DNA from: Ceratodon purpureus
Taxonomy: Eukaryota; Streptophyta; Bryopsida; Pseudoditrichales; Ditrichaceae
Reading direction: 5' to 3'
Assembly (NCBI GenBank): GCA_014871385.1
Contig: CM026422.1
Coordinates: forward strand, 10,416,896-10,480,895
DNA: 64,000 bases
The first letter of the stretch is position 1. Each line of letters begins with the position of its first letter. The notes below the pieces were generated by a model. That model was not told the origin of the DNA and searched no databases. It worked only from the letters and a program-made list of their open reading frames with translations. A program made the translations under genes and the position numbers. Below, in pieces: positions 32,826 through 51,956 of the stretch.

Positions 32826-34952
32826 ACTTAATTTTTTAATATTTTTTCAAAATTGTGTGTATTTTCACAAAATGTACATTTTAACTGGCACTTATGATTT
32901 TTTCTAAATCACTAAAATTTCATATCAAATAAAATAGATCATGAAGTTTTACTGTTTTATAATAATATAAATTATTTGGAATGTATAATTATTCTGACGA
33001 TGCAAAAATATCTCAACAGAATAATTGTACAAGTATTTTTAGAAGCTTGTTGTTATAAGCTTGGTAACATTTTACATTTCTTTCACTTCAAGTAGTGCTT
33101 AGAGTACAAAATCTATGAAAGGAGTGAATGTTGTATTGTTTTCTTCTCCACGATGGACCACACTTTGGCCTTGTACATATCAAACTTGGATGAAGAAGGT
33201 TCCCTTGAGGATATTCTAGTCACAAGATGTACCCTTATGCTTTTATTTTATGTCTTTAAACTTGTCTTCAATTGTTGTTTAAAATGTGCGAGTTCATTAT
33301 ATTGGGTTTCTCATACTCAAAGAGGCATGGACTCTGCAATAGTTAAGAGGATGGAGCAAATGACGAAGAAGTACAACAATGGACGCCTTCGATTGTTTGA
33401 TTCTCCTAGGTCTATAAAGGATAGACATGTCTCTTCTAGTTCTTATAGTCGTGAATGGACAAAAGTGCAGATCCAAGCTATATGGAATGGCTTCTTTGAA
33501 GGATTGTGTGAAAAAGGGATAAACAACCTAGAGAATGCGATAAAGTGTTAGTTTGTTGTGGCTTTAATGCAAAGCCTTTGGATAGAATTTTGCAAGAACA
33601 GTGTTCTATAACCTTATGTATAAAAATAATTATCAAATAACATTGTAGTTATGTGCATTTGTAAATAGAATCTGGTCTAGTTGATTGATGTGTGCACTTG
33701 TAAATAGGTTCTGGTTTGGGTCAAAAAGGGGGAAGGGGTATCAATAGGTTTGGGCAACACCTCCATTGCCCCAAAGTATAACACTTCTTTTAAAGTCCAA
33801 ATGGAGCAAGTCCATCATTTACTATAAAACATGATGGACTCGGGTATCATCCCAAATCCTTGACTCTTGCTTGATCTCAAACATGCACTAAGTATAAGTT
33901 ATTTCCTTTACATATAAAAATTAACATATAAATTCTCCTCAAGCCTAAATTCGCATGGATCACCATCCCACCCAGACATATAGAACTACCCACAATACAA
34001 AAAACAATGAACACACTTCAATGATCTACATGATGCACTTGCTCCACCATGACCACCATGATTCCGGATTCTCCACTTCCTTCCTCTCTCTTTTTAGCTT
34101 CAGTTCTATGACTTTCATTTACACGAAAGAAGGGCGCTACACTTAGGCATTGTTACTGTTACGGCATCAAGAGAAGAACAAAAAAAATCGCTAGAGACAA
34201 AGAGATTAGAACAAAAAAAAAAAAAAAGGAACTATGAGGGCAACGTAGACGCCAACCTTTAAGAAGGCTAGGGCCAAACCTCTCCAACCGAGGTTTGGCA
34301 CGCAATTGTTGTCGTGTGCTTCTTGGGAATCTTGTCTTGACATGAACATAACTTAAACTCTGGCAAAAGTTGACAATGTACAAAAATACCTTAATATCAA
34401 CACCCGATTAATATCAAACTAATTTTTTTTTTAAAAAAATCCATTTTCAATAAGAAAGTTCTCGCAAATTTTAACATAGAAGGAATGACAAATTTACCCA
34501 CTACAATGTCTTTTTAATGATTTTTTTAAAAAAAAATTTAGACTTTTTTATCTTTTAGAATACTATATGAAGCCAAAAACAACATAATTTTTTTGAGTTT
34601 ATAACGTATATCTACAAATTTCCAATTTTTTCATATACATACCACAATTTTAATTTTTTTTAATTTTTATTTAATTCTTCTCCTTTTGGTCGCATTCCTA
34701 AATCTAAATATAAAACACATGGATGAAGATTATACATACACATAGATGAAAAACAATTTAGTTAGGCACCAATGAAAGACACTCACTACAATACTCAAAA
34801 TCAAAAATTTAAAGCAATGATACATGTATATAAAGCAGGAATGGGCCTTTGCTCATTTGTAACCCTAATCCTGTGAAGGCTATCCACCTCTCTTGGAGCT
34901 CTCTTCCAATCACAAGAATAGTCAACCTTCTTTTCATCTCCAAATGCACCAA
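32826..34952. other. AT-rich spacer with one unassigned ORF and a possible orphan promoter
   Basis: An ORF at 33153-33551 (132 codons, ATG in ACGATGGACC) shows no recognisable domain and may be a relic. A run of A at 34215-34228 and T/A tracts around 34425-34690 mark low-complexity DNA. A TATATAAA sequence lies at about 34829-34836, ~120 bp before the transposon insertion site, and could be a promoter now cut off from its gene. Confidence 0.4.
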
Positions 34953-34961
34953 CACCCAGGC
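34953..34961. repeat. 9-bp target site duplication, left copy
   Basis: CACCCAGGC directly precedes the left inverted repeat and is repeated perfectly after the right one. Nine base pairs is the characteristic Mutator-superfamily duplication length. Confidence 0.95.
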
Positions 34962-35194
34962 GGAGAAGGCTAAATCCTCTGTAGTGAAGCCTAGCTGGCA
35001 CGCACGCGCGGCCGCGGCAGCCGCGACTTTCACCCCTGGCCGCCGCCGCCGTGGTAACTTGGTAACTCCTGGACTCGGTAACTTCCCCGTCCCTCGGAAC
35101 ACTGACCAGTGTTACAACGAATTCCCGCCGAGACACTAACCCGCACATACCATCCATCCCACTGCATGCCATGGCCATGGCCATGACCATGGCC
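34962..35194 (+). repeat. Left terminal inverted repeat of the MULE (about 233 bp)
   Basis: It begins GGAGAAGGCTAAATCC and ends in an ATGGCC/ATGACC array. Inside are three direct GGTAACTY repeats (35053, 35061, 35077), a GCCGCCGCC tract, a CG-rich GCGGCCGCGGCAGCCGC stretch, and a palindrome AACACTG-AC-CAGTGTT at 35098-35113. The left copy has one more ATGACCATGGCC unit just inside the shared part. Confidence 0.95.
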
Positions 35195-35672
35195 ATGACC
35201 ATGGCCCATAGTGACACAGCCGCCCATTTCGAAGGGTACTGTAATTATTGCGCAGTGTTTTCATGTCTGTGTTTAGGGTTCATTGTGAAGAGCTGTTTAG
35301 GGTTTAGGGATGCAAGAAATGGTTGTCTCTTTGATGCAGCACTGTCTAGAGCGTCGTCTCCTGCTCCTACCGTGTTTGAGACTGCTGAGATTGACGCCTG
35401 CCTTCTAAACCCTAAAACCTCTCTGTCATCCGCTCTTTAGATCTGATAGTGTTTCACGCCACCGTTTCTAGCTTCCGAACCGTGCCCGAGGAAGCCCGAA
35501 GCAGTATGTAAACCGTAAACCTTAGTCACGGACGATGTCTACGCCTTAGTCTGTGTGTTGCAATGTGGACGTCGTTGCTAGGCACAAACTAGGTTTTCCG
35601 TAGTCTTACTCGTGACACTCGCGGAGAGCCGGTTCGGGTGCGACTGAGGTGCTGCATAACCAGATCGCCTCC
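35195..35672 (+). promoter_or_regulatory. Subterminal leader/promoter region of the MULE transposase gene, with telobox motifs
   Basis: This segment separates the left inverted repeat from the transposase ATG. It contains one GTGACAC motif (35211) and telobox-type sequences TTTAGGG at about 35272 and 35296-35308 and AAACCCTAAAA at 35407. No clear TATA box was seen. The role as promoter and leader is inferred from position. Confidence 0.5.
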
Positions 35673-38600
35673 ATGGCCACGCCGAAGAGTATGACCCCGC
35701 CAACTTCTGAATTTGATTCCCAGTCCTCAAAGGCCGGGAGTACACAGAATCCAGAGAAACCCAGGCTCTCGGAAGTCGATGTCCAGATACTTGCAAACAT
35801 CGAAAGATCGGTTCAAAATCCACCCGAGGGTCCATTTGGGACAAGAGATCTGACATGGACGCCGGAATTCAGAGCACGCCGTGGGAAGCATGGTCGTGAT
35901 TGTGTTGTTCAGCAATGTTACATCCCTGCAACACGTATACAAGATTTCATTGCTGGAGTTCAGAGCGGGAAAGAGGGGACCCAATGCGTGTTCCGGGAGA
36001 CGAAGGAAAATCATAAGCGGGGGGAGGATGCGAAGGAGGGACCGCGAACTCCTCTCGATTTTGCAAGGTAAGCTCATAACAGACAGCACTGACTCTTGGG
36101 TTTAGGGTTCCCTCATTGAGTGTCACAGGCTAATGTGCTTCATTTCTATGTAGATGGCATTGCGAGTATGGTCCCGAAGATTATTCTGGGATAGTGAAAA
36201 CTATATCCTTAGAACTCCTACCCAGAGCTCGCAAAAAGTTGACTATTGTAAAGGTCACCTCAGCAACTGAGGAAGGACTTGCGAAGAAGTCCCCCGCAAT
36301 GAAGCGGCCGAAGAGGAAGGCGCCACGGAAGTTCAAGCCGAAGCCTACTGTTCCTCTTGACCTGAATGCTATCCCAGAAGTAGAGGAGGAGGAGGGAATC
36401 CCGCAAAAACCGACTCGGAAGCGAGCCCCGCGCAAAAAAATCACACTGTCACGGGACGAAGGTCAGTGTTCCGAGCACGTCACTACGTCGAACGGTGTGC
36501 ATTCCGCTCTTGAGGCCGGCGTATCTGCAGTAGTCCATGACAAATCGATGTGGAATACGACGGGATGTTTGACTGATACCGGCGATGTGGTAGACGCTGC
36601 GGCCCCTTCCGTACTTCTTGCAGATGTCGCAGAATTCCCAGGGCTCACGATGACGGGGTGTCACGGGGAAATAGCAAAATCAACACGCAAGAGAGGCCCT
36701 CGTAAGAAGACCGGAGAGATTCTTCTTCCCTCTCAGTGTTCCAGTGACTCCGTCGGTGACTCCGAAGGTCCTGTACCCTCCACGAAAGTATCGCGAAGAA
36801 GGGCTCCTAGGAAGAAGAAACTTGAGGTCCCACGTGATGTCCCGAATACAGAACCAGTAGTCCATAGCGATGCCGTGGCAAGTGCGGAAGTTTCTCCAAG
36901 TAGGAGGCCTACGTTGCTTGAGCCGCAGCCAAAGGTGGTTCGACAACGTGCCCCTTGGAGGAAGGTTGGGAGCCATACTCATGTCAACGACGGTTCTGAG
37001 ACGAGTGACTGTATTCACAATTCAGAATCTGACTCTGTGCAGCATTCCCAGGTCACTGCTGAGGAAACAGTAGCCAAACCACCCCGTAAACGCGCCCCTA
37101 AAAAGAAGCCGCTCCTTGACCTCAATGAACCACTGCCTGATCCTACGTCCCCCAAGAAGACAGTGAGGAGGAAGTATGTCAAGAAAACCATTGGGAAGAG
37201 TAGTCCCCAGAAAAACAAGGTTTCTGTGTTCCAAGGTATAGGCCCACTACTCACTGCTCTTTGCGCGTCGGCGGAAAGGGAGCCACGCAACGCTAACAGT
37301 GTCACGGAGGAAACACAGGTTATCGACGTAACCGCCCGTACGGGAAACGTAATCGACGGAAGTCTCCTTCCTAGCGAGCGAACGGGGGAACTGGAGAACG
37401 CCGGGCGGGAGACGACCACCACGGCTGGTATGACCGCTCCAATTCCTGGAAGAGAAGATGCCAGTGTCACAGCAGCTACAGCGGCCGAAATTGCTGTATC
37501 AAAAAGTACTGTTCCGGAGGGAGTTGATACAAAGAACGCCAATGCCGGGAATGACCAGAACTCTAAACCTGATCTAGCAGGGCATGACCATAAGGAAGGC
37601 GGCGAGGGAGGGAAAGTGAAGAGGAAGAAAAAGGACCCTCGGGATATCAAGCCTAGAGATTCCAGGAAGAAGTGGGGAATGTCCATCAAGAGAGGCTGTA
37701 CGGCACGTTTCACCGTGAAAGTTCTGTTACACGCACCTCACATAGCTGAAGTGTGCGTCATAGAGGCCCAGCATGTAAACAAAGACGGGGTGGTTGTGCA
37801 CGGCGGTATGAAATTCGGTGATCGTGGTTGCTTCGCCGCGCGACTCTCTCCGACAATTCGGAAATTTGTTGATGACTGCTTGCACGAGGGCTACACGGTT
37901 CACCAAATCATGAAGAAGCACCTGAAGTTTTTGCGCAAATGGGAGTCAGAGGGTGGGGTTATCACTCGGGACTTGTTGATAACACCGAAGGACGTTCGGA
38001 ACATTGCACGGAAGCATGCTAAGGAAACATACATGCTAGACTCGAACGACGCACAAAGTGTGCGTATGTGGGTTCAGAGAAATCCTGATAAGGTTTTCCA
38101 TTACACGGAGACTAATCAGGCAAGCCCCGTGCAAGTCGAAGGCCTGTTAAACGGTGACAATATCCCCTTCACTATCGGAATACAGACGCCATGGCAAAGG
38201 AAGATGATGGCCCAGTATGGTCATGGTGGCGGTATCTCCATTGACGCCACTTTCGGGACAAACGATAAAAAGGTATTCCAGTCCCCTGTAACATTGTTGT
38301 ATATGAGACTATCACTTCGTACATTGATAGGAGTACCTCGTGACACTGTAAATGCTTTAGTGTCTCACAGGAAGTATGGCTGTGCAGTTTCCCTTATACA
38401 CCTTGATGGTCTTCGACGAATGGCATCAGGGCATCCCCGTGGCGTGGGTCCTAACATCGCGTTGCGCTGAGCCGGACTTGACCCCGTGGATGGGATCGCT
38501 GAACACTCGGATGAGACAAGAATGTCCTCACTGGAGTCCTTCTGCGTTTATTGTGGACTGCGCACAGGGCGAAATCAACGCAATCACGTACGTCCTATAC

Positions 38601-39904
38601 CATTACTGTATAAAATTCCTGTTTGGATGACTGTCACCATGACCCAGTAATATGTGCCTGTGTCACGACGTGAACCTTTTACGGAACACTGATTAATCTA
38701 ATATGTACGCGGTTTCTCTGGCATGCACAGGGAGGTTTGGCCCCGAATTCCTATCTTCTTATGTCTCTGGCATGTTAGACGTGCATGGCAAAAGCACTCC
38801 TGTTATAAAATTAAGGACACAACGCGGAGGGCTGAAGTTCTGCGTGAATTAGGGCTCATGATGTACGACCGCACCTCACCGTCGGGGTCCGCATGTGGAA
38901 CTTGGGCGAAAGATAAACTGGAAGCTCTGAGTAAGAAATATCCAAGGGAGAAAGACTTCTGGAATTACATGGAGACTCAGTGGCTAAACAAGGTCCACAT
39001 GTGGGTCGTGGGGTACCGGAACCTGCCCTACGCTGGCCAGGATACTAATGCGGCTATCGAAGGTTACCATGGGTTCCTTAAAGCAGTTCTGAAGTCCGAG
39101 AGGAGTCGCATGGTTGGTAGGCGTGTCGACTGGAGCATTACATGTCTGACTGAAGATGTCCATGACCACTTTTGGTACAAGGGCCTACGTAAGGAGAGTG
39201 GGTTCGTTGATAATAAAAAAATGCAGGACTTTGCCGTCTCTGCAATTACGAAGGCCCGATTGATTCCGGACTCCGACGTGTTGCTGAATCAGTCACCGGG
39301 CAATTGTGCACTTGTAACATCAACATCAGACAGGGATGTTCGATATGTGGTTCATAACCCCGGGGAGGAGTGGGCCGGTTGCAGTTGCCCATGGGCAGCA
39401 TGCGGCAATATTTGTAAACACTTGGTGAAGGTTCTATTAATGATTCGTCCTGATATTGCAGAGGGAACGATAGCTCGTTTCTGTGGCAGGCAGGTTGGAA
39501 ATGTACAAGGAGGTATGCAGCACGTTTTGGATCCAAGTATGGTCAGTGATCATACCGACTACTTTCCTTCGCCGGCATCCACTCCGAAGCCCACTCCTGT
39601 CAAGAAATCGGTACATGTTAAGGACGTCGCTGATACTCTGCGGCAGTTGGTGGTTGACTTGACTGAAGACGTTTCAGGAGACCCCGTGCTTATGGATCAT
39701 CTTGTCGCGGAACTCAACCTGGTTGTAGGGAGAATTCGATCGCTGAAGGCAGAACTTCGCACCGGAACTGTGCATCCTTTGGTGGATTCACCAGTGTTAC
39801 GAACTGTTAACGACGGAAGGGGTTTCAGTTTAATCCGGGATAAGGATTTCCTAGAGCGTGGAGGAAAGAGGGTTTCAAGATGCTTGAGGATGTCTGGGTT
39901 CTAG
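35673..39904 (+). CDS. MULE transposase with basic RAPRKK repeats and SWIM zinc finger, about 1295 aa
   Basis: Exons 35673-36067, 36154-38272, 38388-38587 and 38731-39904 join in phase. The ATG at 35673 has context TCCATGGCC. The N-terminus carries Cys/His pairs (RDCVVQQCYIP, RWHCEYGPED). Residues ~150-480 hold at least six basic motifs such as KRAPRKK, KRGPRKK, RRAPRKK, RQRAPWRK and KRAPKKK, spaced ~35-60 residues apart in acidic, Ser-rich linkers, reminiscent of AT-hook arrays. A GCTARF...QHVN segment precedes the MULE catalytic core: D near 828 (SIDATFGTN), D near 895 (FIVDCAQGEINAI), E near 1015 (AIEGYHGFLK). The SWIM finger is CSC...GNICKH (about 1121-1135). All catalytic residues are present. 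The product should bind element ends and catalyse cut-and-paste transposition in the nucleus. Confidence 0.92.
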
Positions 39905-40142
39905 TGAAATGACAGAGGCAGATCAATCCTGACCTGCCAATTACTATCATCAAGTTAACATAACATCGGATTAATACTATCGTATGTGTAACGATACTAT
40001 AGTGACACTGCCTCGTGACACTAGGTACAGATACCGGGTATCGGATTTATGAGGGTACCTCAATCGTTCCACTAACGGACTATATAAGTCATACAGTATT
40101 TCGGTGTTTGGCACTCTGATAGACTCGTTAGTGTGTGCCGTC

Positions 40143-40556
40143 ATGGTCGCCGATAGTGTAGTCGATCTTGAGAGAGAGGTTGAAGAATTCCTCCTAACCT
40201 GGAGTTCCTCTACACCGACGGAAGAGGGGATTGTGCCAAGGGATCCAGGTACACCGTGTTCCGCGCAAGGGGGTGATTCTTCACAGCAGATCATAGACAT
40301 GGTGGAGCAGCTCCATCCTGACGATGTGGAGGTACGTCCGGAGCACCGCATGGGAAGACGTCACCGACGAGGTGGAGCACTACAGCGAGACACTGGAAGA
40401 GCGAGTCACCCATTTAGGGTCAGAGAACGTAGTGTGGTTCGTGCTTCTGCCTTAAGAGCATATGCCGGTTCTTATGCTGCAGAACTGAAGGCCACATGGC
40501 CTGCAAGGTACTGGAAGGTGAAAGAAAGCATGGACAGACTCTGGAGACGTCTTTAG
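40143..40556 (+). CDS. Small MULE accessory ORF of unknown function, 137 aa
   Basis: The ATG in GTCATGGTCG (40143) opens a frame lying 238 bp after the transposase stop. The product starts with an acidic helix (VVDLEREVEEFL), continues with a Ser/Thr/Pro linker, and ends basic (RMGRRHRRGG, then YWKVKESMDRLWRRL). No domain is recognised. Two GTGACAC motifs lie just upstream (40002, 40015). A DNA- or nucleic-acid-binding accessory role is possible from the charge but not shown. Confidence 0.5.
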   Translation: MVADSVVDLEREVEEFLLTWSSSTPTEEGIVPRDPGTPCSAQGGDSSQQIIDMVEQLHPDDVEVRPEHRMGRRHRRGGALQRDTGRASHPFRVRERSVVRASALRAYAGSYAAELKATWPARYWKVKESMDRLWRRL

Positions 40557-41029
40557 TTTAGGTTTTCGTAATCCTCTTGTATCACGGTTTATGAGGACAT
40601 GGAATAAAGTTGTTCCCTTTTTCTCCATTTCCTTTTGGTGTACTAGGTCCTGACTAGACTGGGCACATGAAAGTATATGTAGTGTCACGAAATCACTGAA
40701 CAGTAAGGGGGAAACATTTATAAAAAATGTATATACCTTGTCAAAGCCCGTAGGTGACGATCTGCCCTGACCATCCGATTCCCTTGAATTCACGACAGTG
40801 AGGAGATGTGTCGTGGAGTTCACTGTCGCGAGAATGAGTGAGTGACTCTGACACAGTCAGTGTCACGGCAGATGGGACGTTCCGATCAAGTCCTTCTTAC
40901 GTTCGATTACGCCTGTGATGCGGTTTTAGGTACCTTCGTGGTGACGCCACGTACTGCGTTCTCATAAAGGAAGCTGGGGTTTGCGTCTTTCTCCCTTTCT
41001 TTCCCGAGTTCTTACTTCATTGCGCCGCG

Positions 41030-41428
41030 ATGGAGTCTACTGATGATACGCCTTCGTTACGAGTTACCGCATTGTCGATGTTGTGGTTTCCGGTAGTCAT
41101 AGGCTGGACATTTCTTCTCCTGAAGATCACAGTGTGGGTTCTACATTTCCTTGAGCGTCGGCAAGGTGAAGAGGTCCCGTCTGTGACGGCTATGGTTATT
41201 GCAGGGAGAGAACATGATTCGGGGGGCGTCCCAGTGACACTAACTGAGGTCAGACTGTGTCGAGGTCCGGGTTCTTCCACGACGGCTTTGGATGACGATG
41301 GTGGATCAGATGGCGTGGGTGAGATTGAATTATGGGACAACGCGACGACAAACAGCATCTGGGAGGAGTTCTACGGGGGCATGGGCGAAGAAGCTCTCGA
41401 CAATTTGAGCGACTACAGCCCTAGGTAG
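41030..41428 (+). CDS. Small MULE ORF with one predicted transmembrane segment, 132 aa
   Basis: The ATG in GCGATGGAGTC has a strong initiation context. Residues ~13-38 are hydrophobic and aromatic (ALSMLWFPVVIGWTFLLLK and on), followed by ERR, fitting a signal-anchor or single-pass membrane protein with the C-terminus possibly cytosolic. The rest is acidic and Ser/Gly rich (DDDGGSDGVGEIELWDN, EEALDNLSDYS). I do not recognise it. A membrane protein is unexpected cargo for a DNA transposon; it may be a captured host fragment or a fortuitous frame. Confidence 0.5.
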   Translation: MESTDDTPSLRVTALSMLWFPVVIGWTFLLLKITVWVLHFLERRQGEEVPSVTAMVIAGREHDSGGVPVTLTEVRLCRGPGSSTTALDDDGGSDGVGEIELWDNATTNSIWEEFYGGMGEEALDNLSDYSPR

Positions 41429-44016
41429 GATTTAGGGCTGCTTCTGCAGCGGTCGTCGGGACTATATGTTTTTACAGAGGATTATGTAGTTCAGGATTAT
41501 GTAGTTGAGGATCGTAAACATTTCAGTGAAACTCCCTATGTTTTACACTTTCAGTGGTCTCCACTGGAATACCGTGACGCTGCTGTGTGCAAGTGTATAT
41601 AAGAATAGTTATTTTCCGATGGATGTTAGCGGGGATATACTGCAGGTAGAAAGTATGTGGAAGGAGGCCATGAGTACTATGTTATGATCAGTGTACATTG
41701 AAGTGTCACTGAGGAACAATATTTTCATAAATTTTGAACTTTTTATTTCCGCCTTTTCAATATAGGAGGGAGAGGAACATTCAATATTTCAAAGCAAAAA
41801 TTTATCAAATGGGAGAGTATGTATAGGATGTGGGCATTACTTAGTTTAGAATCGTTTCTTTATATTATTTATATTATATATAGATGAATGTTTAAAGATT
41901 ACATTGTTCAGTAGAAAGCCCTTGTTCATTCTAGGCTCGTTATGGACTCAGAAGTAAACATGGACACATCATAGTGTTAACAACACTTAATATAGTACGT
42001 CGTCTACATTTTAGTACATCAAAATCAAATTTCGCCTGTGACGGGAAAATGGACTTCTTTACGTCTTCAACTCTATAATTAAATGCATTCGTAAAAATGA
42101 TTATTATGTTAAAGTTAAAAAGACAAATCCATACGGACGGGAAATATATGATTGAAACGGAGACGGACTGGATGGTTTTAATACATTAGAGAGAACGGTT
42201 GTTAATCCTAAGGGAACAATATGGAAGGGGTAATTTATGAAAATTCAATTTTAAAAACATTGGAAAAGGGCATTTATTATAATAATAACTGGAACAAGTT
42301 GTATACGTATATAAAAAATATAAGGGGTACTGAAATGGTGATACTGATGTAAATAAGTTCCGTACCTTAAGTAGAAAGAAGGAGGGATTCAGGTACATGG
42401 TCCGTAAGTCCTTAAAAATTAGACAATAATTAGAATGCAAAACAAATGCGTTTGTAGAAGCGAAGAATTAGGATAAGGTTAGTATGCGTAAAAGAAAATC
42501 ATAATCGGCATAAACTACGTTTTATACATTAAATAAAAATTTCTTGAGTAGAAGTTGGGTTTCAAATTTAATTTCAGGTTTTCAATAATTCATCTTCTAC
42601 TTTGTCTTGACTCTTTTGCTTAATTTCACCTGAGTCAAACGAATACAGCACCTATGACTTCACAGAGTATTACCCAGTACAATATTTTTTGAATTCATAA
42701 CGAGTTTTTCTTGCATTTAATAAAGTAATAGGATTCAATTTTTTTAATTTTTTCACGAGAAACGACCTTGGTTTACCTCTGACGAATGACGTATTTTTTT
42801 TTTGGGGATAATTGAAAGGCATATAAGACCTCCAAAATAGTACGGATTATATAAATTTTTCTCTTCAAATATTCTTATGCAACAACTATATGGTTGAAGA
42901 TATGGCAAGGCCAAAATTAAATTGTAAAACGAATGTGTTTGTTGAAGGGACTAATTCGAAGACGGGTATCATTCGGAAAGAAATTGTGTAAAGGGCACGA
43001 ACTAAGGAGGACGTTACATGAGAAAGGAAGTCAAGAATAAATAAATTAATATAAAATGCATTTATAAGAATTACGAGGAGAGATTGCGCTCCATTCGTTG
43101 GTTGATAAAAACATAAGAATGTTTAAAAATGGCAATCAGACATGACTTGTTTTCAAAATGAGTAATACATATTCAATCTTCTGGGATTATGGTACTTTAT
43201 TTTCTGTACAAAATTAATATGGATTAATTTAAATTGAAATGAGTCTTAGGTGAAAAAGATGATGACATAAATTATTCTGCCCGAAATTGATATACAGTTG
43301 AACCTACCAGTGCAATGTATATTGTGCATTTCGTATTCTATAGCACTGTAGTCAAGATCGGCGCTGAATTATTACTTGGTGTTACATGTCATGGACCTAA
43401 TGCCTTTGTTTCGGTTCATTCCATACTGAACTCAGAAAATCCGCAAAGTATACAAAAAACGTTCTTATGCAAAAGAGCTAAGTGCCGGGGAATTCATAGA
43501 AGTCCAACCCGGAAATATAAAGAAATACAACTGCGGTAGAAAGGGCATACGGGAGTGGAAGGCATGCTTTAAATCACTTTGGATGCAATTCTGGAATTAT
43601 ACTACAATATTTTCTAAAGCAACACAAACAGCTTGTGAGATGGTAGTACTTGATGCACTGCCTACTGAGAACTGCCTCAATCCCAGTATCACAGTACGCT
43701 TTCTCTTATAATTCCGTTGTACTACGAGGCTGCGGAATCCATGTTCTGTTTCTTAGAGTCTTATGAGTAACATGCAGTCGTTTCTGGTTGCCACAGTAGA
43801 GTTCCAAAATAAAATCTAACAATGTCACTGGGTTCAGCGAGATATGTTAAACCCTGCCTACGTCCTCTGTTCTGTACCATAAGAGGATGGAACCATGATC
43901 CCTTAACACCCTCTACGTGTTCAGACTATTGTAATTAACACAACCCTGTACAGAGTGGCTGGTGCAGCCGCACATCGTTCTGCATTCCATCCGTGGTGAC
44001 TGCTGTGACACTGAAT
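41429..44016. other. AT-rich centre of the MULE between convergent genes
   Basis: No supported gene lies here; base composition falls sharply compared with the flanking element genes. The two main genes converge on this stretch, so it should contain their 3' ends and polyadenylation signals. One GTGTCAC motif is at 41703 and one GTGACAC at 44005; the stretch between has none, in contrast to the rest of the element. It may be a nested insertion or filler DNA. Confidence 0.55.
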
Positions 44017-47000
44017 TCACGATTCGTCGCTGGAGACTTCCGGAGCCACAGCCCTCTTAGATGCTCGAGTGACCCTCGGCACAGGGGGGGGAGCTCCGTC
44101 CATCAGTAAGCCACTGTCATCGCCGTCTGATGCATTTTTAGGTAGCAGCTGGCAAAATGGGGCCGCGTAACGAGTATCCCTGCTTGTGGGGTCGAGCTCC
44201 CGAGCGAACAAGACCAGCATCTCCTTGTTCATCTGCACCGCTGTGTGTGGTTTGAGGAATTCACCGGTCTGTTGTACTCCTCCAGCTGCAGAGTCCCCTG
44301 TACGGAACTGTCGTGACACACAAGACACGGAAACTATTAGATCCAAAACAGTGTCACGAGACGCGTGTTCATGAAGATCGACCAAACCGTTAGAATGGGG
44401 GGCAACTTCTGCACACCTTAAGATATAAAAGGATGTTACGAATGCACACGTGACCACACTCGTTGTTTCCAAGTTGCTGAAACACTGTGATGGGGGAAAG
44501 GTCCTCAACTGGATACTCCTCGACGCCTCGGAGACACTGCCAAGCTGCAGACATCCACCTCACGAACTCCGAGTGTTTGCCTTTTGGGTGGTGCGCAACT
44601 CCGGTGGCTGAATCCAAGTGAAAGACTCGATTTGACTGGAATATCAATACGGACCAATGACCCTCACAGACCCAGGGTATAATGATCTCCTTCACCTCAT
44701 CGACCTCCACTCCGGGCGGTGGCTGAAAGTAATCCTTCGCAAGCTTCTGTAGAGTCTTCGTACCAGAGATGACTGCCTCAAGGAGGGCACTTACCCGGGA
44801 ACTCACTATATGAATCTCACGACGCCTCTGCTCTGGATACGCCATGTATACTCTAGAGAATACAAAGTCCACAATGTCGTTCCCCAGTCGGGATTTAGCC
44901 TTTGTCAGTTCGCGAATGGCCTTGTGCCTCACTTCAACCTCTTTGCCACAGTGGTTGTAGAAGACTGTCTCTGGCCTACGGGATGAACCCTCGCCCACAG
45001 TAGGCACAGCTTTCAGTAGTGTATCAAGTCGAAGGTCGTCGTACACCTGTGGGAGACTATGCTGACTGAATCTCGAAGCATCTAGAATGCTACAATCCCC
45101 AGATGCACTGTCAAGTGTCCCTTCCGAGTGCTCTCCCTGCCCTGATGGCAGTACTGTCCCCTGCCCTTTCAGCACGACAGTGTTACAGAGGTCGTGGACG
45201 GGTCGAGACAGCCTGACTAACTGGTGGACCGTCTCCATGTCGCTCTCCATATCGAAGAGAGCAACCAAATTCTTCGATGTAGAGTCTGGTCCATCACGAG
45301 CATGGTCCCCCCCTGCACTTGATCCGCTTTCAGGCAACACCCCCCTAGGAGGTGTTTTTGACGTCATCGAACCACTACCGTCCATCCACTGAGACAAGCT
45401 GTAGACGAACTGTGACTCCTGTGGTGGAATGTCGTCCACTACATGCGCCCCCCTAACAACCTGCGTGACAGTTATCAGAGGTTCAGTGTCCTTCGTTGTT
45501 ACCTCACTCTCCAACACTTCCATGATTTCGGGAAAAATCGGAGTCGCGCCATGTCCCTCCTCCTGGCCCCTGTCCGTTGAAGCTCCTGGAGCCGCTGTTC
45601 CATCCTCCGGTCCATGCAGTGTCACCGCCGAAGTTCCACTGTGTGGGCCCTCTGAAGAGTGTAGAGTGTTTTCCGGTTTCAGAGCAACGTATCCAGTCTT
45701 GATGGGACTGACCAGGGCATACGGGTTGTCCTCCACATTCCCCCCCGCAACTATGCTTTCCTCCTTCGGACTACTCTCCTCGAGAGCACTCGTGACACTG
45801 CATACCATGTGAGCAGGTTGAGCTCGCTGTGCCTCCGTCGGTGGATCTGCAGTAGGTAAGCCTTGAGCTCTCTCATCTTCCTGATGTTGTTCCTTGCCCC
45901 CTGCAATCGCTTTGGCACCCGGTGACAGACACATTGGATTCTCGAAGCCCTCATCGGAGTCGCTGCCCTCGTTCCGTTCTTCAGGGGAGCCCTTAACAAC
46001 CCCCCCGATGACTGAATCCGCTTGCGACGCGGACATGGCGAAGGCCACTGACTGCCCCCCATGAACATGATGTCCGGAACATGTTAGGCCGGAGCCCTCA
46101 ATCCTACTCACAGAAGAGATCCACTGGTCTCTGTCTTCCACCTCGACGGCTCCCCCAATGTCACAAGAGGCCTTTAGAATATCTGCCCTCAACTTCGCTA
46201 CGCCCGTACTCCAGGTTGGCGTACTTAGAGACGGGACCCATCCAATATCTCTGTCCTCTCTATATTGTAAAGTCCTGCTCCAATGCTTAGACAGTGACCC
46301 CCACTCCCAATAGTGCACTGTGCACCATGCTTCCTGAAACCGATGCGGATGCTCCGCAGCCAGATCTTGAAGAGCACGCAATTGCACTGATCGGACCCAC
46401 TCCAGGAGCCCTTCCACCAAGGCATCTCCCCTTCCCTGTCTAATTTGGTCGATATCAAGCATTAGCCTGCGATCCAGGGCTGCACCAGTCTCTTCGATCT
46501 CTGCAAAGAGAAAAGGACCTTGTGCCACTAATGTAGACAAGGCCTTTCTTATTTTCGTGTCCTGCGAGCAACTGTCTCGGATGTTGGAGGCTGTAAGACC
46601 GTACATGGGACACGACATCTGCCGGAAAAGTCCATACTCTTGCCAGAAGTAAACCCTCATCAACTGGACCAGGGGACTCGGTTTTCTGCCTTCCACGCGA
46701 TTTAGGGTTAACTTCCATCGCACAACCTTAGATTCGCACTCTGCAATTGGCATACCCCGATGATCAGAACCAGTGTTACAGATTAAACTCATCGTATGTA
46801 TAGGTGAATTAGCAAACATCAACCAATACTTACTGTCGTGGTTCCATGGCAATGCGGGAAGTTCCTCGAAGAAGTGCCTCCGGTCCGCCAATATCCTCCA
46901 GATAGGACACCAATCCCAAATAATCCTCTCCCTCAGACCTGCGTGTTTTTCTCGAAACTCCTCCCTGGCCCTGATTACCTTGGCATTGATTTCCGCCTTC

Positions 47001-49320
47001 CTTGTCTTTATGTAATCCCTACTAGTTTCGAGGTAACGGGCATAATCCCTTGTCCATTGTAGGTAGGCACAGACCTTGTCTAACTCCGGGTAAGGCTCGT
47101 TGGCACCTCTGCTCGCCACCAGTAGATCCATCGCCGCTGTAATCGAGTGACGCACTGATTTGACATCCTCCCGCAAGTTCTTGTCGGCCTACAAATCACA
47201 GAATCATTCTGTTAGTGGCGGAATAATATCACATTCTCTGAAATACTGAGTGCAGTGTCACGAGAACAGTGTAATCGGCTGAAATACTGCAATTGAAGGA
47301 TGTGTTGCTCACCTTTTTTGACGTCCACCACCACAGACATCCCATCAGTCGTTCTTGAAACTCCGGCTTCTCGTATGAGTCCTCCCAAGCTTTGCGAAAA
47401 CTTTCGCCACTCTCATGATCCCAGGACCATGGAAGAGTCACAGAGTCGTCAAAAGTCTGGAGGTGGATCAGACCTGGCACGGCCGGTTTCTCTGGTGCAA
47501 GGGGGATCGTCAACGCCTGTAGGGCTTCGTCTGCCCTTCTTTGCTCCAGCGCCACGTAAGACCTCTCGTGCCGTTGAAACTCCTCCTCTCGAGCCAGAAA
47601 CTTATTCTCCATATCGGGATGATACTTGAATGGCTCCGGGAAGCCTTTGCCCTCCGCCCAGTACCTCTGCAATTCCGCGTTGTCCGTATATGTGTCGTCC
47701 CAGACCACCATCTCCGAAATAGCGGCCTCAACTGTCGTAGCCGAACTCTGTATCTCCGTAAAGTCTGGTTCCTCGCGATGGTCACCTGCTTGGATCTGCC
47801 ATCCTCCATCCCCGTTGAAGTCACTATGTTCCTGCACAGACCCGTCTTCATTTCTTTGGTCTTCGGCGTTCATCACCGCTGCATTAGTCACACATTGCCC
47901 CTCTAATAGTGTCCCACGTGTCACCTGGTCGATTCCAACATCAGGTGGTGAGAGATACAACGTCACTGAAGAGTTAGTTTCCTGACAACTCTTATTCTTC
48001 TCTTGTAATGCTCTCAGTGCCCCTGAACTGGCCGCTAATACGAAACTCTCTTCTACGGTATGAAACTCTTTCCTAGCAATGTATAACATATCCTCAGCCC
48101 ACACGCTTACCGGGTATCTAGACTTAGATGGGAGTCTGAGCTCCTTCTTCTGTTTAGATGACTCCGGTTTTCTGGTCTTCACGTGAAATATCTGGTCTCC
48201 CTTATCGTCTGTCGCTGGAATCTCTGTTTGTATCCCGTGGCGCGATTGCGGACGCCGTGACACAGGTGGTTGCGCTTGACACTGTGCTTCTTGGAGTGGG
48301 GGTGCTTGTTCAGACCCGGAACCCCGAAACTCTGGCACTGCGCTTAGCCGGTCGGTCCTTCTCTTCTTTTTGTCTTGGGCATTATCCAGATTCTCAGCAG
48401 CATGTCGTTCTAACCTCTTACCCCGGTCGTCTCTCTCCGTTTTTGCCTTCCCTTGAGCAACTGTCTGCGCAGCCTCCGCCGCAGCGTGATCCGTCGATGT
48501 CCCTGCCAACACTTTCATCAACCCCCGTCCAGTCCCCCCAGCTTGTTTCATCTTCTTCGGGGCGGTTGCGTTTTCCACCTTCCCTCCTCTCTCAGCCTCG
48601 GCGTCCTCTGTGGCATCTGCATTTCTCTTCAGCCTCCGCGGCCTCGATGGAGCCTTATGAGACCTCGGCGGTGCTGCCCCATAGAATAGGTCGGCTGCGG
48701 GAGTCAGAACATTCCCTGGCCCGTATGCCTCAGCATCCGTGACACTGATGCTCTGTCTCCGCAGAGGTGGTGGCCCTTGGAACTCTTCGTCCCACTCCTC
48801 GTCCTGGACTCCAATATCTTCAACTCCACCTGCATCTCCGCCTGCTTCTCCGCCTGTGGCCCCTTTGAGCGTCTTGCTCCCCACAGTCTTCCCACCCCCG
48901 TGCTTCCCCATAACCTCCACCATCTTCCCCTGCCCCGGTAGGAAGTCTGGGTAGGGGAGTAACAGCGCCTTGGTCCCATCTTCATATACTGCACCTGGGC
49001 ACCCTTGTTCAAACCTATGAACGTTGAGCATTAGCTTGTTACTAAAATCAGACTTACCGCAATGTATGCACACGAAAAACCTGCGCGCACACCCTGGCTT
49101 CACAGCCCCCTTACAGTGAGTGGCAAACTCGCGCATCAAGTCTATCACCCGCTGCTCGCTTGGGTACCTAACATTGTATGCTCGTTCATAGATTTTGACC
49201 ACCAGAGTCACGGGTTTGAACTCCATCATGTTAGACGCGCACTGCCCAGTTGGATGCTCGAATTTACAAAGCTCCAGACCTTTGTCACCCAGGAACCCCG
49301 AAACGGAATACTTCAAGCAT
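44017..49320 (-). CDS. MULE-encoded zinc-finger protein fused to an Ulp1/C48 SUMO-protease-like domain, >1680 aa
   Basis: Exons 49320-47313, 47188-44417 and 44307-44017 join in phase. The frame is open upstream of 49320 without an ATG, and an acceptor CACCAG lies at that point, so a 5' exon is probably missing from this model. The N-terminal ~100 residues carry a C2H2-like finger (FVCIHCGKSDF...NVHRFEQGC). A long low-complexity region with acidic and basic patches follows. Near the C-terminus the C48 triad is intact: His in CEGHWSVLIF (about 1511), Asp in FHLDSATG (about 1528), and Gln/Cys in QQLGNNECGH (about 1577). Ulp1 enzymes cleave SUMO or related isopeptide bonds. The last exon adds a 97-residue tail (PVPRVTRASKR, SSDES end). 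Ulp-like genes in MULEs are known; fusion to a zinc finger in one giant protein is unusual. Confidence 0.88.
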
Positions 49321-50934
49321 ACTGGTGAATTTGCCCCTGTTCATTTTCAATAGAATAGCACAGTCAGAGAATCAGTGGAGACGATTAACTCTGCCTGCAA
49401 AGATTGCATGGAAATGAAGAGGAGATTTCATCCCGCAACAACTATTTTCTCTCCAATCATCTTCAGTGGAAACATCACATTAGAACCCCTACGTACTGAT
49501 CCATGACTGTAAACGAGAGCGATGTCTGCACACAATCCGGAGAGAAATCCTTCGCACGACGAGAAATTACACCCCTGCTAAACTGGACTAAGCCTAAACC
49601 TACTATTCCGGGTATTCTCTACCCGCCTTGATTCATCTCCTCAAGGTGACACCGTTTCCCCTAATGCGCAAAGTGGAAATTCACTCACGAAGACCCTGGA
49701 AACAAAACACCTTCCTCCCAATTCTGTTGAAGCACCATCTCCATCCCTACTGACCGGACTTGTACACATTTCAAGCGAGGGGACGGTTCTATGAAATAGT
49801 GTCACAGATTTGACGAAGTACCTGTGATCTGCGTGTTGAGCGCTGAGGAGGTTGCGCCAAACAGAATACGACGGATACGAGATATGAAACCTGAGGCAGA
49901 GCAATGGCACGTAAACGCCCGCAACCTAAACCTTCACTCCAATGGAAAGGCACGGTTCTGACCTTCCTGCGAACCCTAATCCGGCTTCTTGCAATTACGA
50001 GGTCTGCATGCAAGAGGTCTTGTCAGCAATAAATCTAGTGACCTAGCATTAAAATGCACAATTAATGTAAACATTAGAACCCTAAACCTCAGACTCCGAA
50101 TGTCAATCATAAACGTCAAACCTAAAACCCTAAACCTCTCGAGACACTGATGTGACGTTTGTGGCACTGAATTAAAACGCAGAACCCTAAAAAAAAAAAA
50201 AAAAAACAAAAAATTATAACTGTCTTCGCGTCCAAAACTGCATCGTTTGCGACCTCAGCATGAAATAAAGGAAACAGATGAGGCCCACACCGAGTACTGA
50301 TGAAGGAACCCAAAACGAGACAGAGGAAACAATGCAAAACGACAAAGGCGGGATATTGAAGGGAGTTGCTGGATAAACGAAATAGGTCGCAAGAGGGCAC
50401 AATCTCCTGTCAACGAAGACGCAGATGGAGCAAAGAAATAGAACGCGACGAAATCCGGAGACGACATCGAGAGGAAGGTTTAGAATAGGAGTACACGGTG
50501 GTGGGAAAGGACGTCCTTCTGATCCGCCGGTGGTAGACCAAGCGCGTCCACCCCCTTCCTCCGCGATTCTTCAACAACGCGCATTGTGCTCCCGAGAAGC
50601 AATATGTGCACTACTAGAGTTTAGGGAGTCGCACGCCCCCAATTTCGTCGCGCTGGGCGGAGAGATGCGCATATCAGGCGGTCTCCATAGCCCCAATTTC
50701 AGATTTGCATGTTCACGTCGAGCCCTGCATCAAGAAGTAATACCCCGAACGTTCCGACAGCATTGGGCAATCGCGGAAATCGAAGTAATCGCCACGTTCA
50801 TGTTCCGCCCTAAACCCTAATCGTCGGAGGAGCTTCAGCACTCTCAGAACACTATTCGGAAATGAACGAAGCTCGTGACACAAAGAATGCACAGGATGCA
50901 GTGAGGCTGACGTCAGTGTGGGCCCCACAGTGTC
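49321..50934 (-). promoter_or_regulatory. Right subterminal region of the MULE: probable leader, 5' exon and promoter of the Ulp1-like gene
   Basis: This 1.6-kb stretch lies between the Ulp1 gene and the right inverted repeat. It should contain the missing 5' exon and promoter, but no exon could be chosen with confidence. It holds three GTGTCAC-type motifs (49646, 49799, 50875), several telobox motifs (about 50080, 50125, 50171, 50811), and an A18-type homopolymer near 50189. Confidence 0.45.
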
Positions 50935-51166
50935 GGCCATGGTCATGGCCATGGCCATGGCATGCAGTGGGATGGATGGTATGTGCGGGTTAGTGTCTCG
51001 GCGGGAATTCGTTGTAACACTGGTCAGTGTTCCGAGGGACGGGGAAGTTACCGAGTCCAGGAGTTACCAAGTTACCACGGCGGCGGCGGCCAGGGGTGAA
51101 AGTCGCGGCTGCCGCGGCCGCGCGTGCGTGCCAGCTAGGCTCACTACAGGGGATTTAGCCTTCTCC
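50935..51166 (-). repeat. Right terminal inverted repeat of the MULE (about 232 bp)
   Basis: It mirrors the left repeat with one single-base gap (GAGCC against GAAGCC) and one substitution in the first 40 bases. The palindrome AACACTGGTCAGTGTT is at 51016-51031, and the three GGTAACTY repeats are conserved. Confidence 0.95.
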
Positions 51167-51175
51167 CACCCAGGC
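51167..51175. repeat. 9-bp target site duplication, right copy
   Basis: CACCCAGGC is identical to 34953-34961. Confidence 0.95.
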
Positions 51176-51956
51176 TACCTCGAATGTCCACGGTCTTAGA
51201 CCCCAGACTTCCAGTTTAAAAAATAAATGACTGACCCACCACCGTCCATGGCCACTTGCTCCACACTCCACACACACAGGAATCCAATCAAGGGAATCCA
51301 ACACAATCCAAACAATCCTCCCAAATTTAACGCCCACCAACTCACCGCAACAATCATAAACTAATCCAAGCTTCACCATCTCTTGACGTGCATGTCACGC
51401 ACCCTAACTCAACGCAACGCAATCCGAGCAACACATCACGATCGCATAATGCCTCATCACAGCATCTCCGAACAGCATATCATTCACCCTCACTTCGGAC
51501 ACAACCCACTCTCATTTTCATCATCCTGCCATGGCATCTTGATCCCCAGATTTTGCACAGATGCTGATCAGAAACCACAACAATCCTGCCTCGGGAATCA
51601 CCATCTGGGATCGTATTTCATGTCGTGAATTTTTAGTTCTGTGTTGAGATTAGTGAGGTGGTGGATCTTGGAGTGGTTGGATTGTTGGGATTGTAACAGC
51701 AGTGTTGGTGCTGAGCTGTGGATTGAATTGGGTTAGGAAGGATTTTCCTGTGGGGATTTGTGTTTGGAATTTTATTTTTTGAAGATTTTTGTTTGGGTTT
51801 TTTTTGGGTTGGTTGGGATTTGTAGGATTCGTGAGTGATTGGAAGGATTTGTGAGTGTTTGTGAGGATTTGGAGGTGGGTGAGCTGGGAGGTGGGTTGAT
51901 GAGATTTTAGGGTTGGGAGCGGGGGAAGTGGTTTGGGGTTTTGGGGGTTTGGGAAG
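51176..51956 (+). promoter_or_regulatory. Proximal 5' flank of the vacuolar processing enzyme gene
   Basis: These 781 bp lie between the MULE target duplication and the VPE start codon. The last 300 bp are G/T-rich with many GGGTTT and TTGTGAG-like words. No obvious TATA box was found, so the promoter may have been interrupted or pushed away by the transposon. Confidence 0.4.

Follow-up and report, generated by a model that had tools for sequence, protein, structure and literature searches.

A 64,000-nucleotide stretch of a Ceratodon purpureus contig (the window) contains, at positions 34962-51166, a complete element of ~16 kb bounded by terminal inverted repeats (TIRs). The element belongs to a large family of giant Mutator-like elements (MULEs) in the 362.5-Mb genome of this moss, whose members share a gene set and carry, dispersed along their length, a short selected self-motif, AGTGTCAC; family and motif are regarded here as real, and the mechanism set out below, in which the motif would guide self-recognition, as a proposal. 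The motif is the main new find and is absent from the first-pass annotation of this DNA. That this is a complete MULE family with the genes described below is close to certain, and comparison of its copies indicates that AGTGTCAC is very probably a selected recognition site acting at the level of DNA.

The 18 occurrences of the motif in the window all lie within the element (Table 1), and none of 100 shuffles of the window reached this number, the largest count being 5. Ten TIR-bounded elements were compared, consisting of the window element (E1) and nine more, and each of them contains 15-22 copies of AGTGTCAC on either strand, where an order-2 model, computed for six of them, expects 0.6-0.8. 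In seven elements totaling 111.6 kb there are 142 copies, versus one in 83.7 kb outside (the rest of the window, 1-kb flanks and two inserts nested within element E2); the nested inserts, amounting to 17.9 kb, have none. Copies are found roughly once per 0.5-1.1 kb along the whole element, with a preference for C before the word and G or A after it, and several one-mismatch neighbors of the word are also enriched inside, more weakly (e.g. 28, 28 and 27 versus 2-3 outside). Regular spacing is not supported: the proportion of simulations as even or more so was 0.26, 0.04 and 0.27 for E1, E8 and E11, so that two of the three elements tested show no significant regularity. Orientation, assessed over four elements with the sense set roughly by position, is close to balanced, at about 33 sense and 41 antisense copies, and this suggests a motif that works in double-stranded DNA rather than in RNA. 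Two sites lie on opposite strands in different lineages by virtue of a few changes, because the core of the motif is near-palindromic.

The ten elements comprise lineage A (E1, E2, E3 and E6, 95.6-98.9% identical to E1), lineage B1 (E7, E9 and E15, plus E8 at about 79% to these) and lineage B2 (E11 and E14), with identities of about 69-72% between lineages. Between E1 and E11, which differ by about 29%, AGTGTCAC is retained at 8 of 12 noncoding sites, compared with 3.2% for the remaining noncoding 8-mers (p=4.9e-10), and at 4 of 6 sites in exons, compared with a background of 16.8% (p=0.009). The E1 sites intact in E8 and E7 number 7 and 8 of the 12 noncoding ones and 4 and 3 of the 6 in exons. 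Among 33 aligned motif positions, grouped with E8 apart from B1 and with E2 left out, 12 are shared by every one of the four groups and 11 are confined to a single group; of these 11, position 36657 also occurs in E2. The motif extends to four further elements, F1-F4, which keep the gene order and of which F3 and F4 are 68% and 61% identical to E1 in the last transposase exon. Their 19-20 kb stretches hold 22, 19, 16 and 27 copies, respectively. In the three elements with known ends (F1, F2 and F4) none of the copies falls outside the TIRs; F3 showed no TIR pair within the stretch examined. L045, a 7-kb piece from another relative at ~60%, holds 14 more, so that AGTGTCAC persists in the clade with ~60% identical transposase represented by F4 and L045. 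In a distant MULE with a 30-36% identical transposase, which is one small control, neither AGTGTCAC nor a partner-gene match was found in 3.8 kb.

The first-pass annotation described a complete MULE of giant size in what looked like an early plant; completeness, giant size and a moss-like genome are supported. Aligned over 234 columns, the TIRs of the window element show 1 mismatch and 2 gaps (99% identity over 233 bp) and are flanked by exact 9-bp target-site duplications; duplications in the MULE superfamily are about 9-11 bp. A genome search with the TIR, in which the best 40 of 79 candidates were scored, yielded 16 facing pairs from 32 of the 40 matches, the other 8 being unpaired; six pairs, 20-43 kb apart, were left out of the ten-element comparison. 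Target duplications are present in all ten elements (nine exact, one matching at 8 of 9 positions), and all share a terminal GGAGAAGGCTAAATCC at both ends. Nine are 15.8-17.8 kb long and the tenth, E2, is 33.2 kb. Even larger elements, as TIR pairs 33-43 kb apart would imply, were considered and are not claimed, because E2, the one examined, is a normal element enlarged by two nested inserts. These inserts (4.9 and 13 kb; C2:5185609-5218797) have CAGGGTTGT ends and 8-bp duplications and are apparently hAT-like, in which case the 13-kb one would be unusually large. Element E15 has an insert of ~1.9 kb within the second transposase intron.

The empty site with a single 9-mer, a check put forward in the first-pass annotation, was also found, in old copies of a repeat. 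The query joined the two flanks of the element (34801-34961 and 51176-51360) with one 9-mer into 346 nt, and among the best 40 of 883 candidates it identified, besides the two real flanks, 38 places and 3 secondary pieces. The 38 places are 76-83% identical to the query, and 37 of them span the junction. Eight retrieved copies align over the junction with a single 9-mer-sized segment, such as CACCCAAGG or CACCTAGGT, one of the eight having a 2-base gap there. The element therefore inserted into a copy of a dispersed repeat of ~200 bp and duplicated 9 bp. Dozens of 76-83% identical copies of this repeat are spread across many contigs. The description of the element as young stands in a relative sense, the nearest copy examined being 98.9% identical and the genes being intact.

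The transposase is, as first annotated, an intact DDE enzyme, encoded by four open spliced exons (1295 amino acids). The splice sites of both giant genes were set by eye, as viewed in an alignment of the ten copies, and the exact transposase start is uncertain because the start codon differs between lineages. The protein matches the Pfam families MULE (PF10551, 1.6e-13) and ZSWIM1-3_RNaseH-like (3.2e-8). A SWIM zinc finger at its C-terminus, in keeping with MULE membership, scores 21 bits against PF04434 (cut-off 19.6) with exon 4 alone and 19.0 bits, just under the cut-off, with the full protein. Of 14 elements examined, 13 have all three catalytic-residue motifs; only E14 does not. Exon 2 also has KRAPRKK-type basic repeats (36290-37200, by eye) that resemble AT-hook-like or nuclear-targeting repeats and lie in the faster-evolving portion of the protein. 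Taken together, transposase, TIRs and target duplication make the element a MULE, and its anatomy supports an autonomous giant element that moves by its DDE transposase.

The second giant gene is convergent with the transposase, on the minus strand, and encodes 1627 amino acids over four open exons. It had been annotated as an intact Ulp1-like gene: the open frame stands, and the Ulp1 label finds its support in diverged copies, at weak scores. The full protein had no Pfam match at E<=1, which leaves the label without single-sequence support, and the Ulp1-like domain alone had no meaningful match in the PDB. PF02902 matches four of five diverged members (best 3.5e-4; the window member, at 0.0092, is below the Pfam cut-off), and in a PDB profile search a Ulp1-like SUMO protease ranks first (0.0057), with H, D and C aligned. 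These catalytic residues are invariant in the five Ulp1-like sequences aligned (E1, F1, two from the F3 stretch and F4; F2, which has a stop in the domain, and other copies were left out). At the other end of the protein, residues 1-100 are 62-82% identical to those of F1-F4 and contain a CxxC...H...C arrangement with classical zinc-finger spacing, whose four residues are unchanged in eight sequences (E1, E8, E9, E11 and F1-F4). In the comparison with F4 the zinc-finger domain is 62% identical and the other 100-residue segments with a confident match (E<1e-5) 26-49%; with F3 the values are 72% and 32-55%.

Two small genes, D and E, complete the set, and both are conserved between copies, as the two further open reading frames of the first-pass annotation. 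Gene E encodes a small membrane protein and is open in nine of ten copies; F3 and F4 have retained a small protein that combines a hydrophobic segment with this motif in its tail. No Pfam relative of this protein was found, and a PDB search with an alignment gave no match at E<=1. Gene D, which encodes a basic protein, is the weakest case among the genes: it has no stops in seven of ten copies, one of which lacks a start codon, and was found in F1-F3 but not in F4. Both giant genes are open together in two of the ten copies, E1 and E11, whereas in each of the other eight at least one of the two is interrupted by stops, frameshifts or an insert, counts that depend on the E1 gene model. Between these two intact lineages, the ratios of nonsynonymous to synonymous substitution rates (dN/dS) are 0.18 for the transposase (79% amino acid identity), 0.22 for the zinc-finger/Ulp1-like gene (67.5%) and 0.27 for the membrane gene (60%), which argues that the genes of the family are under selection. 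For the membrane gene dN/dS is 0.27-0.40 between lineages and, on few changes, 0.44-0.63 within lineage A; for gene D it is 0.30-0.62. The extra genes, first described as cargo, are common to lineages ~30% different and, except for gene D, to the ~60% transposase clade, and hence are the family's own gene set.

The window element, far from a single oddity, is one of many copies. Among the best 106 of 829 candidates for the last transposase exon, 26 are full-length matches at 83-100% identity and one is partial at 91%, followed by a group of 8 at 64-70% and the rest at 57-63%; the best 150 of 403 candidates for the zinc-finger domain are all at least 58% identical, and both numbers (106 and 150) are lower bounds. 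A convergent zinc-finger domain lies 3-45 kb from 84 of the 106 transposases, and within 20 kb in 77 cases, some of the larger distances possibly reflecting nested or neighboring copies. Random placement (n=200, with the lengths of contigs C4 and C12 guessed) gives a mean of 1.3 and a maximum of 6 such pairings. Contig C6 (110.5 Mb) holds 88 of the 150 zinc-finger and 53 of the 106 transposase matches, versus 30.5% expected by length. Judging by its size C6 is probably a sex chromosome, and transposon build-up on a non-recombining chromosome is ordinary. Excerpts from PMC8000587 give a genome of ~360 Mb for C. purpureus, with U and V sex chromosomes of >100 Mb each, ~30% of the genome.

The best explanation overall, which we advance tentatively, is an autonomous giant MULE with motif-guided self-recognition and anti-silencing. 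The element would run a self-recognition system based on the word (C)AGTGTCAC(G/A), which an element-encoded protein would bind. The likeliest binder would be the zinc-finger/Ulp1-like product, with its N-terminal C2HC finger and C-terminal Ulp1-like (SUMO/ubiquitin-like) protease; toward the most distant relatives the zinc-finger domain is the segment of this protein that is conserved best, and CAGTGTCACG is the extended word that it is predicted to bind. The protein would coat the element and there cleave SUMO, or a tag like it, off silencing proteins, and this cleavage would leave the element genes open to expression, as an analog of the anti-silencing exerted by the VANC proteins of Arabidopsis VANDAL elements; the small membrane and basic proteins would be its partners. 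The fixed word and the conserved finger appear to fit each other, as a correlation in sequence, and that the zinc-finger/Ulp1 protein is the reader and anti-silencing the effect is, by analogy, plausible but uncertain.

VANDAL elements (VANDAL21/Hiun, Kaonashi/KIU) are, in the excerpts of the papers cited here, the closest parallel. They combine a MULE transposase with further genes and a short word repeated within the element, and VANC proteins bind such short motifs and demethylate the DNA (PMC5735166, PMC10398659). For VANC21 the word bound is YAGTATTAY, located in noncoding DNA of VANDAL21, and methylation is lost over the whole element; the VANC6 motif is AGTTGTCC/AGTTGTAC (PMC5735166). 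KIU copies have a Ulp1-type domain, and some VANC genes carry a Ulp1 domain, the capture of which is placed near the monocot-eudicot split (PMC13317346). VANDAL TIRs are degenerate (PMC10398659), whereas those of the moss element are long and near-perfect.

Several observations weigh against the proposal that the zinc-finger/Ulp1-like protein reads the motif in the manner of VANC. The Ulp1 assignment comes with weak profile scores. The nearer relatives F1 and F2 match the zinc-finger segment at 82% and 80%, no better than they match the protease domain (80% and 81%), and residues 601-700 of F2, at 85%, exceed its zinc-finger segment. VANDAL motifs form tandem arrays in noncoding DNA and differ between families, VANC21 and VANC6 included (PMC5735166, in excerpt), whereas the moss motif occurs singly, is the same word in every lineage examined, and falls in exons at 6 of 18 sites. 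All six E1 exon copies are in one codon phase, and constraint on the encoded protein could explain some of their conservation. The 1627-residue protein gave no Pfam match at E<=1, DUF1985 (the VANC domain) included, although a diverged domain could be missed. The moss family looks as though it operates similarly but departs from VANDALs in three features tested, and is therefore not filed under VANDAL. The earlier suggestion that it forms a distinct lineage is plausible.

The transposase is also strongly conserved and therefore could be the reader instead, and excerpts from PMC10398659 link the transposon proteins MURA and Spm TnpA to demethylation of their own elements. We consider this unlikely. 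The motif would then be a transposase-binding site, serving either transposition, through compaction of 16 kb and joining of the ends, or transposase-led demethylation; the giant size of the element makes synapsis a plausible problem, the transposase is 41-76% identical to that of F4 in segments with a confident match, both F4 TIRs contain the exact motif, and the E1 5' TIR has a palindrome, AACACTGACCAGTGTT at 35098-35113, built from motif half-sites (by eye). Yet the E1 TIR has no exact copy, and sites are spread over exons, introns and spacers, whereas known subterminal transposase-binding sites cluster near the ends. In addition, a related transposase without a nearby zinc-finger gene also lacks the motif, in one small control.

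It is improbable that AGTGTCAC is the site of a host transcription or chromatin factor used for expression, for instance in gametes or on the sex chromosome. Transposon use of host factors is common, and telobox-like AACCCTAA/TTAGGGTT words are likewise enriched in the element, with nine of the ten in E1 near the two ends (35273-36109 and 49972-50820), either in front of the two gene sets or within their first parts. The AGTGTCAC sites, however, are not concentrated near promoters and run through the whole element, including the region around the convergent 3' ends, and the word is nearly absent from the 83.7 kb of flanks and nested inserts, although these sample little of the host genome. A non-functional motif, whether an oddity of composition throughout the family or what is left of ancestral internal repeats, would account for the enriched one-mismatch neighbors, as expected of decaying repeat copies, and for the shared codon phase, but is highly improbable given strong site conservation amid poorly alignable noncoding surroundings, motif positions that differ between lineages and persistence in ~60% identical relatives.

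Among other known systems, MuDR of maize resembles the moss element in its TIRs of about 200 bp, its target duplications of 9 bp, its transposase with a SWIM finger and its convergent second gene; it is about 5 kb long and its second gene is unrelated to a Ulp1 protease. The MULEs of melon, rice and grapevine also carry a Ulp1-like protease, and their description in excerpts from PMC13317346 includes no mention of a dispersed motif or a membrane protein. Excerpts from PMC6431247 describe Chondrus (red alga) En/Spm elements of 16-20 kb with 4-5 open reading frames, which are giant DNA transposons of another superfamily, and state that the Pack-MULEs which Jiang et al. 2004 reported were all within 7 kb. 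In the open-licence literature searched no publication on this family or motif stood out, and a word search of the main text of a MULE survey (PMC6446971) found neither moss nor Ulp1.

Motif-guided anti-silencing has been described for Arabidopsis VANDALs. With its numerous copies and intact TIRs, its unvarying word and a candidate for the protein that reads it, the moss family allows the origin of this strategy to be tested directly. It is also of interest because its members, as DNA transposons, encode a small conserved membrane protein, and because they move by cut and paste at a size far beyond that of most MULEs. More speculatively, the word may be an ancient self-address, in which a superfamily of giant MULEs writes a fixed word of 8-10 bp into every element over its length, a word that is read by a zinc-finger Ulp1-like protein; under this doubtful but possible extension, only the element's own DNA would be stripped of silencing marks, and the membrane partner would perhaps hold the reader at the nuclear envelope. 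In that case, anti-silencing that is guided by a motif and linked to Ulp1 would be much older than the angiosperm VANDALs, or would have arisen twice.

Table 1. Features of the window element (window coordinates).
Feature	Position	Strand	Remarks
Left target-site duplication	34953..34961	.	CACCCAGGC, exact 9 bp
5' TIR	34962..35194	+	233 bp
AGTGTCAC/GTGACACT sites	35612..49805	.	18 single sites, none elsewhere in window; starts at 35612, 36119, 37298, 37463, 38340, 40002, 40015, 40681, 40859, 41234, 41702, 44005, 44350, 45618, 45792, 47254, 48739, 49798
Transposase exon 1	35673..36067	+	Splice sites by eye, ten-copy alignment
Transposase exon 2	36154..38272	+	First catalytic D, residue 829, in SIDATF
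Transposase exon 3	38388..38587	+	Second catalytic D in IVDCAQGE
Transposase exon 4	38731..39904	+	Catalytic E in NAAIEGYH; SWIM zinc finger
Gene D	40143..40556	+	137-residue basic protein; conserved ends DSVVDLEREVEE..., GSYAAELKATWPARYWK
Gene E (membrane gene)	41030..41428	+	132 residues; one N-terminal hydrophobic segment; near-invariant acidic tail WEEFYGAMGEEELDNLSDYSPR
AT-rich spacer between the two convergent gene sets	41440..43660	.	Poorly alignable across lineages
Zinc-finger/Ulp1-like exon 4	44017..44307	-	
Zinc-finger/Ulp1-like exon 3	44417..46740	-	C48-type H (GHW), D (HLDS), Q and C (QQLGNNECG)
Zinc-finger/Ulp1-like exon 2	46834..47188	-	
Zinc-finger/Ulp1-like exon 1	47313..49226	-	C2HC finger in residues 1-110
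3' TIR	50935..51166	-	232 bp
Right target-site duplication	51167..51175	.	CACCCAGGC, exact 9 bp

Capture of host gene fragments, as in Pack-MULEs, was examined for the membrane gene, no search having been aimed at host parents of the other genes. A host origin of the membrane gene is made less likely by the distribution of its 46 genome matches, which were compared with the best 35 of the 106 transposase matches and with 12 of the 150 zinc-finger matches picked by eye. Thirty adjoin a same-strand transposase match and 10 more face a zinc-finger domain, placing 40 of 46 near a partner from the family and leaving six unexplained. The six are all on contig C6: the match at 55570198 lies inside a TIR pair outside the ten-element comparison, that at 58121548 is a good match (1.2e-20), and the other four (99974120, 79443496, 51398104 and 63998187) are weak.

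At C10:16867820-16890499 two zinc-finger/Ulp1 genes lie ~9 kb apart on the same strand, and the two elements thus seem to be in tandem or nested. Four further zinc-finger matches have identical scores, at C1:51721, at C3:24844850 and on contigs C68 and C87, with those on C1 and C3 about 0.05 and 0.3 Mb from contig ends; their scores and positions suggest a duplicated, perhaps subtelomeric, segment containing one element.

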